Assembly: GCF_000022145.1 (NCBI RefSeq)
Contig: NC_011891.1
Coordinates: 1,872,001 to 1,936,000 of the forward strand
Source of the DNA: Anaeromyxobacter dehalogenans 2CP-1
GTDB lineage: Bacteria > Myxococcota > Myxococcia > Myxococcales > Anaeromyxobacteraceae
Length of the DNA stretch: 64,000 nucleotides
Direction: 5' to 3'
Shown here: in pieces, positions 51,666 to 53,042 of the stretch
Layout: every line of letters begins with the position of its first letter
How positions within the stretch are numbered: the first letter of the stretch is position 1
Notes under the pieces: generated by a model
Database searches by the model: none
What the model saw: only the letters and a program-made list of their open reading frames with translations
What the model was told of the DNA's origin: nothing
Position numbers and translations under genes: made by a program

Positions 51666-52769
51666 CTACCCGAGGGCGACCTGCCCGAAGGCGACCTGAT
51701 AGATGGGCGGCAGCCTCGCGGGGTGCTGCACCCAGCGATCGCCGCCGTCCTCGGAGATCCATAGCCCGCCGGTGGTCGAGCCCATCGCCAGCCGGTCGCC
51801 GCCCGCGTCCACCGCCAGCCCGTGGCGGTACACGAGGTCGTACGCGTGGTCCTGCGGGAGCCCGTCGCGCAGCACCTCGAACGTGTCGCCTCCATCGCGC
51901 GTGCGCGCCACCACCAGCTTCCCGTCCACCGGCACGCGCCGCTCGTCCTTCACCGCCGGCACGAACCAGGCGGTGCGCGGATCCCGCGGGTGCACCGCCA
52001 GCGCGAAGCCGAACTTGGAGGGCCGGATGGCGGTGATCTCCGTCCACCGCTCGCCGCCGTCGGCGCTGCGGAACACGCCGTTGTGGTGCTGCGCGTACAG
52101 GCGCTCCGGCGCGGTGGGGGCCTGGACCAGGCGGTGGACGTCCTGCGCGTTGGGATCCTCGCGGCGCTCGGGCGGCATGTACTCTGCGTACATGCCGGTG
52201 GCGCGCAGCGCCCAGGTCTCGCCGTCGTCGGCGGTGCCCCAGACGCCGCCGGTGGAGATCGCGCACAGGAGCCGCCGCGGGTCGCGCGGATCCACCGCGA
52301 TCGAGTGCAGGCCGGGCTGGTCGTAGCCGCCGCCGCCCCAGTCCTTGCGCTCGGGGCGGTCGGACAGGCCGCGGACCAGCGTCCAGGACGCGCCGCGATC
52401 GCCGGAGCGGAACAGCGCCGCGGGGATGGTCCCGGCCCACAGTGCGCCGGGCCGGTCCGGGCCGGCGGGCTCGAGCGCCCAGATCTGCTGCACGCTGGGC
52501 GCGTCGCTCGCGCCCCCGGGCTCGGGCGGGAACGCGGGGGCGGGGAGCTCGGTCCAGGTCCGGCCGCGGTCGTCGGAGCGGTGCAGCTTCACGCCGAAGT
52601 GGCCGAGCGCCAGCGCGGCGTAGAGCGTCCCGTCGCGCGGATCGTCGAGCACCAGGCTGACCGGATCCCCGAGGAACGCGCAGCGCTCGATCTCCCAGCC
52701 GCGCGCGCCCCGCTCCAGCAGGAACAGCCCCTTGCGCGTGGCGACGCTCAGCCGATCGCTCGTGCCCAT
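51666..52769 (-). CDS. BNR/YCF48-type beta-propeller protein
   Basis: The 367-residue product has five or more BNR Asp-box repeats: SDDRGRTWTEL, SGDRGASWTLV, ADDGETWALR, SADGGERWTEI and SEDGGDRWVQ, spaced as in sialidase-like propellers. There is no signal peptide and no catalytic Arg triad, so it is not a sialidase; a cytosolic ligand-binding or scaffold role is more likely. Its start lies 3 bp after the ThiS-like gene, whose 3' end contains its GGAGGG ribosome-binding site. The stop codon falls inside a 15-bp tandem repeat. Confidence 0.85.
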   Translation of the reverse strand: MGTSDRLSVATRKGLFLLERGARGWEIERCAFLGDPVSLVLDDPRDGTLYAALALGHFGVKLHRSDDRGRTWTELPAPAFPPEPGGASDAPSVQQIWALEPAGPDRPGALWAGTIPAALFRSGDRGASWTLVRGLSDRPERKDWGGGGYDQPGLHSIAVDPRDPRRLLCAISTGGVWGTADDGETWALRATGMYAEYMPPERREDPNAQDVHRLVQAPTAPERLYAQHHNGVFRSADGGERWTEITAIRPSKFGFALAVHPRDPRTAWFVPAVKDERRVPVDGKLVVARTRDGGDTFEVLRDGLPQDHAYDLVYRHGLAVDAGGDRLAMGSTTGGLWISEDGGDRWVQHPARLPPIYQVAFGQVALG

Positions 52770-52772
52770 GCC

Positions 52773-53042
52773 TCACCCTCCCGAGAGCGCCTGCATGACG
52801 TGGATGCCGCTCCCGGGGCGCACCGGGTCGGCGAGGCCGTCGCGGTCGATCACCAGCGCGCCGTCCACGAACACGGCCACGTGCTTGCGCAGGCGGCCCT
52901 GGTCGTCGAGCACGTAGCCGCGCAGGCGCGGGTTGCCGCGGAACGCCGCCTCGAGCGCCTCGCGGACGGTCCCGCCCGGCACCTCGGCGGGCGGCGCGTC
53001 GAGGTGGCGCCGGAGCGTCGCGGTGAAGGTCACGAGCGGCAT
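52773..53042 (-). CDS. ThiS/MoaD-like ubiquitin-fold sulfur-carrier protein
   Basis: This 89-residue protein has a beta-grasp pattern (MPLVTFTATLRRHL, VREALEAAF, GYVLDDQGRLRKHVAVFVDG) and ends in SGG, the diglycine C-terminus that E1-like enzymes activate. It is coupled to the downstream BNR propeller gene. No MoaE, MoeB, thiamine or molybdopterin gene is in the neighbourhood. It could be a sulfur carrier for another pathway or a protein modifier. The ATG at 53042 has GAGG upstream; an in-frame ATG at 53072 would add ten residues. Confidence 0.85.
   Translation of the reverse strand: MPLVTFTATLRRHLDAPPAEVPGGTVREALEAAFRGNPRLRGYVLDDQGRLRKHVAVFVDGALVIDRDGLADPVRPGSGIHVMQALSGG

Follow-up and report, generated by a model that had tools for sequence, protein, structure and literature searches.

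What does a ThiS/MoaD-like carrier do beside the gene of an Asp-box propeller? This question arises in a stretch of 64 kb of Anaeromyxobacter dehalogenans 2CP-1, the window of this analysis, in a genome made of a single 5.03-Mb contig. A sequence-only reading had described an 89-residue protein ending in SGG, whose gene stops three bases before a propeller start. The coordinates confirm it: the carrier stop codon is TGA at 52773-52775, and the gap 52770-52772 separates it from the propeller ATG at 52769 (Table 1).

Table 1. Positions in the window of the carrier gene, the propeller gene and their conserved codons.
Feature	Position	Strand	Observation
ThiS/MoaD-like carrier gene, 89 aa	52773..53042	-	ends QALSGG; relative directly upstream of propeller in 79/80 loci
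Terminal Ser-Gly-Gly codons of carrier	52776..52784	-	GG at carrier end in 235/238 adjacent carriers
Asp-box (BNR) seven-bladed propeller gene, 367 aa	51666..52769	-	same family as PDB 3b7f
Propeller motif Q209-D210-V-H212 ... Q227-H228-H229	52083..52145	-	column 210 is Asp, Cys or TGA family-wide
Conserved His155 codon	52305..52307	-	His in 257/261 propellers

The carrier scores 24.7 bits against the Pfam ThiS profile, just above the curated cut-off of 22.5, and it has the C-terminal Gly-Gly of the ThiS/MoaD-like beta-grasp family. SAMP1 (NF041918) is the closest NCBIfam model, with 46.3 bits, below its equivalog cut-off of 60. The best PDB relative is 1v8c, related to MoaD. In an alignment of 47 sequences, the invariant columns include Q84, L86, G88, and G89, and few features of the carrier are as rigid as the GG. 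The whole genome presents four ThiS-family matches, and the carrier is the sole one within the window. The six flanking genes scanned are all ordinary (isocitrate dehydrogenase, malate/lactate dehydrogenase, an FAD-binding protein, isocitrate lyase, 5'-3' exonuclease, and an ammonium transporter).

The propeller exceeds the Pfam cut-offs of both Sortilin-Vps10 and BNR. At its start, MGTSDRLSVATRKG, a signal peptide is not obvious by eye. Both results agree with the earlier description of a non-secreted Asp-box protein. PDB 3b7f is a full-length relative (E 1.4e-60, residues 7-360), and a TM-score of 0.87 by target length was obtained with the model of a relative. The mean column identity is 63% in an alignment of 43 propellers.

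We scanned a genome collection with the propeller and kept the best 80 of 303 encoding stretches. Among these 80, the nearest named matches are from Anaeromyxobacter. In 79 of the 80, the gene immediately upstream on the same strand is a carrier, at a distance of 0-187 nt; L038 is the lone exception. Of these upstream carriers, 77 end exactly in GG, and two (L041 and L055) carry one further residue. A third conserved gene was not found around the 80 loci, where just shadow frames of the two genes and a few neighbours confined to particular lineages came up, nor around L111-L188.

Whole-genome samples per phylum were searched in order to avoid ranking bias; their centre genomes (G000, G211, G228, and G238) were known positives. 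Propeller matches at E 1e-10 are present in 41/195 Myxococcota and 14/200 Pseudomonadota genomes, and at E 1e-30 in 63/149 Planctomycetota and 49/149 Acidobacteriota genomes. Over the four samples, a carrier is adjacent on the same strand for 164 of 181 propellers. In Myxococcota, this holds for 37 of the 38 places of at least 195 bits; the 37 include a decayed pair (G127, L130), the remaining place is at a contig edge, and the coordinates were read partly by eye. The corresponding values are 10/11 in Pseudomonadota, 72/81 in Planctomycetota, and 45/51 in Acidobacteriota. Two of the phylum counts take named loci (G211 as L026, G238 as L067). Places under 195 bits were dropped from the Myxococcota and Pseudomonadota counts (G020, G022, G024:C146, G094, G097, G156, a small G127 piece; G259, G284, G383), as were two fragments of G238 (166 and 145 bits) from the Acidobacteriota count. 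Four of the 17 misses are at contig edges, and in three more the propeller is the second one of a carrier-propeller-propeller run (L159, L212, and L215). The pair also occurs in L047 (titled Verrucomicrobiaceae), in L021 (titled Latescibacterota), and on an Arthrobacter plasmid (L136). A supposed Pseudomonas aeruginosa pair, PA1355/PA1356, guessed from gene order, was dropped.

Considering the 79/80 named loci and the 164/181 phylum-sample places, the adjacency of carrier and propeller is not chance. The proposal of the sequence-only reading that the two genes form a coupled module outside thiamine and molybdenum-cofactor operons is strongly supported. The pair extends well beyond close relatives, and its tail is kept. 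Among all adjacent carriers, 215 of 238 end exactly in GG, and in 20 more the chain continues past the GG.

A number of propellers share the conserved site but have no adjacent carrier (Rhodobacterales plasmids L132-134, L148, and others). In G343 and G583, the A1 profile finds no carrier anywhere in the genome; carriers of the GAIAGG group may escape this profile. Their link to ThiS is weak, with about 9-12 bits to A1 and, in L123, no Pfam hit. A type I pair is decaying in L130 (G127:C1:9021500-9028000), with the propeller in pieces and a carrier ending in SGC; G127 also holds a pair of the other type. Close to some pairs, genes or domains of the VOC/PhnB-like, YciI (DGPF), and AHSA1 families turn up repeatedly (L138, L144, L145, L119, and L156; those of L119, L144, and L145 were named by eye).

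The order of the two genes is not uniform. The carrier is upstream in type I propellers, with one exception seen (L220, downstream), and also in the TILPAVSGG group. It is downstream in the 3b7f-like, GAIAGG, and selenocysteine groups. The loci fetched from the phylum samples contain 156 adjacent carriers, of which 83 precede the propeller and 73 follow it. L169 is a natural fusion, a single ORF of 460 aa with the carrier followed by the propeller. Carriers are also fused in frame to other domains: to LMWPc in L150 (3511-4218), to AHSA1 in L156 (2900-4342), and to a BipA-like GTPase, named by eye from its sequence, in L172 (164-2422). These last three fusions resemble ubiquitin precursor fusions. 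The GG is internal in all four, so a free carboxylate would need proteolysis.

The two proteins diversify together. Their distances correlate with r 0.84 over 165 pairs, compared with 0.05 for the best of 500 permutations, and with 0.82 to 0.94 within three single phyla; linkage alone can account for part of this correlation. The set took 14 random pairs of the 79 from named genomes, and it left out L130, L229, L287, L288, L169, and the plasmid loci. For 148 of the 165 pairs, the nearest carrier from another phylum belongs to the same subtype. The subtype alternates within the genus of the window: type I in G000, G031, G035, G036, and G038, GAIAGG in G032 and G034, 3b7f-like in G037, and none in G033. 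This alternation suggests that equivalent pairs were exchanged within the genus.

Over 261 propellers, His229 and Gly254 are invariant. Near-invariant are His212 (260), Ser172 (260), His155 (257), Gln227 (256), Arg315 (255), and Lys13 (248). L130 was left out of one motif comparison. Column 210 is different. It consists of Asp in 177 propellers, Cys in 75, an in-frame TGA in eight, and Thr in one, the carrier-less L167. From a reading of the topology, based on the sequence and the predicted strands and not on measured distances, residues 210, 212, and 155 would begin innermost strands, with 229 and 13 lying in B-C loops, which places them on the top face of the propeller.

All eight in-frame TGA found are in column 210, in six planctomycete genomes, and all eight propellers have a carrier. 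A tRNA-Sec exceeds the cut-off of 47 bits in the six genomes (65.7-75.2 bits). None of six comparison genomes, chosen for lacking selB over cut-off, has a tRNA-Sec over cut-off. The selB gene is over cut-off in five of the six TGA genomes, and also in 21 of 27 other planctomycetes tested. A common GC hairpin lies about 20 nt downstream of the TGA in 7-8 of the eight sequences. However, its z-scores are weak (about +0.1 to -1.9) and there is no covariation gain, so we do not take it as proof of a SECIS. The eight TGA probably encode selenocysteine in the planctomycete relatives, not in the protein of the window. The genome of the window holds a strong tRNA-Sec (G000:C1:2314985-2315079, 76.7 bits), although its own propeller has Asp in this column.

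In the DMSO reductase family, Asp, Cys, and Sec are also known to replace one another as the ligand of molybdenum. For this reason, we favour residue 210 as a metal ligand, and by this analogy the top-face site of three histidines plus Asp/Cys/Sec probably binds a metal. The sequence-only reading had proposed that the propeller may be a client, scaffold or receptor. With its conserved site, it looks like an enzyme and not just one of these.

How would the carrier act on such an enzyme? In the explanation we prefer, to which we give about equal weight for and against, the pair would be one functional unit, a dedicated, cytosolic propeller enzyme of seven blades with a GG-tailed carrier. A housekeeping MoeB-type E1 would charge the carrier in trans, probably by adenylation and possibly with thiocarboxylation. 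Where residues follow the GG, a JAB peptidase would trim them. The activated tail would then enter the top-face site, whose putative active residues are His155, His212, His229, and Asp/Cys/Sec210, with Gln227, Arg315, and Lys13, probably around a bound metal. There the tail, most likely its sulfur, would serve as co-substrate. The family and the Cys/Sec forms point to sulfur or redox chemistry.

Structure models of the pair are divided. In AF2 model 1 (a type I read-through pair), the pTM is 0.85, compared with about 0.75 allowed for an unplaced carrier according to our own pTM arithmetic; residues 87-110 have pLDDT <50. In contrast, AF2 model 2 (the opposite order, with a free tail) has a pTM of 0.76, about the unplaced-carrier value, and a tail pLDDT of about 40. 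Model 1 thus argues for a docking of the carrier on the propeller and model 2 against it, and in neither is the GG tail docked or confidently placed in the propeller. Together with the internal GG, the carrier-less propellers, and the weak tie of GAIAGG carriers to ThiS, model 2 weighs against a simple thiocarboxylate story. None of these weighs against the pairing.

Candidate enzymes for charging in trans are present. The earlier remark that no E1-like enzyme is nearby holds for the window, where a genome-wide search places no ThiF or JAB match. The genome itself has six ThiF matches, five of them over cut-off and MoeB-like ThiF among them. In a survey of the genomes of 50 of the 80 loci, 49 have ThiF over cut-off and 48 have a MoeB-like one at E 1e-61 or better. 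Only in G224 (L044), which bears a pair, was ThiF over cut-off not found. The genome of the window has a cluster at 4.065-4.067 Mb (G000:C1:4064879-4066736) with the genes of a MoaD, a MoeB-like ThiF, and a JAB peptidase, a candidate activating set for the window carrier.

A JAB peptidase of at least 71 bits is present in all ten tested genomes whose carrier runs past the GG (the genomes of L041, L055, L112, L207, L209, and L259, also with such carriers, were left out of the test). By comparison, JAB of at least 60 bits is present in 2 of 11 controls (Fisher 2e-4). The controls are a convenience choice from other phyla and subtypes than the ten, and the association of extended carriers with a trimming peptidase is only suggestive.

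These results also bear on a different explanation, which we consider unlikely. The carrier might not be chemically activated at all and be a structural or regulatory subunit that forms a lid on the propeller, with the GG conserved for fit only. It would explain why the GG can be internal, as in the L169 fusion and in the carriers with long extensions, why the E1 gene is not adjacent, and why one pair-bearing genome lacks ThiF over cut-off. However, the GG is highly rigid, and it is exactly terminal in 215/238 carriers. The MoeB-like ThiF of 48/50 genomes and the coincidence of extended carriers with strong JAB (10/10 against 2/11, with convenience controls) also argue against a lid.

Another possibility, which we judge improbable, is a ubiquitin-like modifier system, where the propeller would be a receptor, a ligase adaptor, or a deconjugating enzyme for the carrier. 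The nearest NCBIfam model is that of an archaeal modifier, though the score is below its cut-off, and a Cys or Sec beside His could in principle act as a hydrolase site. Nevertheless, no E1, E2-like, JAB or other conjugation gene is kept beside the pair in the 80 loci, and the candidate nucleophile is Asp in 177/261 propellers, unlike in a cysteine protease.

Finally, it is hardly credible that the propeller is a glycosidase or sialidase with the carrier as a chance neighbour, as the names of its relatives (exo-alpha-sialidase or sialidase family protein) and the title of 3b7f (putative glycosyl hydrolase) would have it, since the pairing is conserved in both orders and in a fusion, and GH74 structures match at just 11-17% identity. 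Three histidines plus Asp/Cys/Sec are not known as a glycosidase set. If the pair is one system, the name exo-alpha-sialidase that some genome records give to such proteins would probably be wrong.

Our preferred explanation, a propeller enzyme served by a charged carrier, can be extended to the whole family. Somewhat tentatively, and with a little more doubt than belief, we propose a class of propeller enzymes that would depend on a metal or on selenium and would strictly require, as co-substrate, the activated GG tail of a dedicated carrier. About a third or more of the Planctomycetota and Acidobacteriota genomes sampled would have such an enzyme, and Asp, Cys, and selenocysteine would be interchangeable at its active site. 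A widespread pair that survives order inversion, fusion, and a probable exchange of subtypes within a genus may fill a gap in the sulfur or protein-modification biochemistry of common bacteria. Column 210, with its Asp, Cys or Sec, is a concrete site to test, and the solved relative 3b7f is of help.

Among the titles and abstract beginnings searched, with subscription papers mostly outside the scope, we found no description of the carrier-propeller pair or of its selenium form. The accessible text of a 2006 survey of prokaryotic ubiquitin-like neighbourhoods, which treats AOR-linked MoaD and JAB-linked systems, does not contain BNR, propeller, sialidase, WD40, Asp-box or glycosyl hydrolase (PMC1779556). 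In PMC1949818, "propeller" appears once, and BNR and sialidase are absent. For 3b7f (Reut_B4987 of Ralstonia eutropha), the accessible part of the article lists the function as not known and does not mention a carrier (PMC2716378). This protein belongs to the family of the window propeller, with seven blades and a D-P-H motif. However, it resembles the carrier-downstream subfamily, whereas the carrier of the window is upstream.

The small archaeal modifier SAMP1 is similar to the carrier in length and GG tail, but the carrier scores below its cut-off, as noted above. In the CysO / Mec+ / CysM and QbsE-type systems, a GG-tailed carrier gives sulfur to a partner enzyme, and JAB can trim the residues after the GG. 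They combine a GG-tailed carrier with a partner enzyme, as we propose for the pair. In contrast, their partner is not a propeller and their E1/JAB genes are often linked, whereas the window pair has neither adjacent. The partner types so far known for the ubiquitin-like sulfur carriers of bacteria are few.

According to the accessible text of the 2006 survey, MoaD genes are strictly adjacent to aldehyde ferredoxin oxidoreductase genes, in clusters that often hold MoeB and other cofactor genes (Iyer 2006, PMC1779556). Like the pair, this is a dedicated ThiS/MoaD-like protein beside one enzyme gene in scattered distant prokaryotes. It differs in the partner, which is not a propeller, and in the MoeB and cofactor genes often clustered with it, whereas the window pair has no third conserved gene. 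Within the literature searched, the pair looks undescribed, a probable carrier-plus-partner system with a propeller as the partner.
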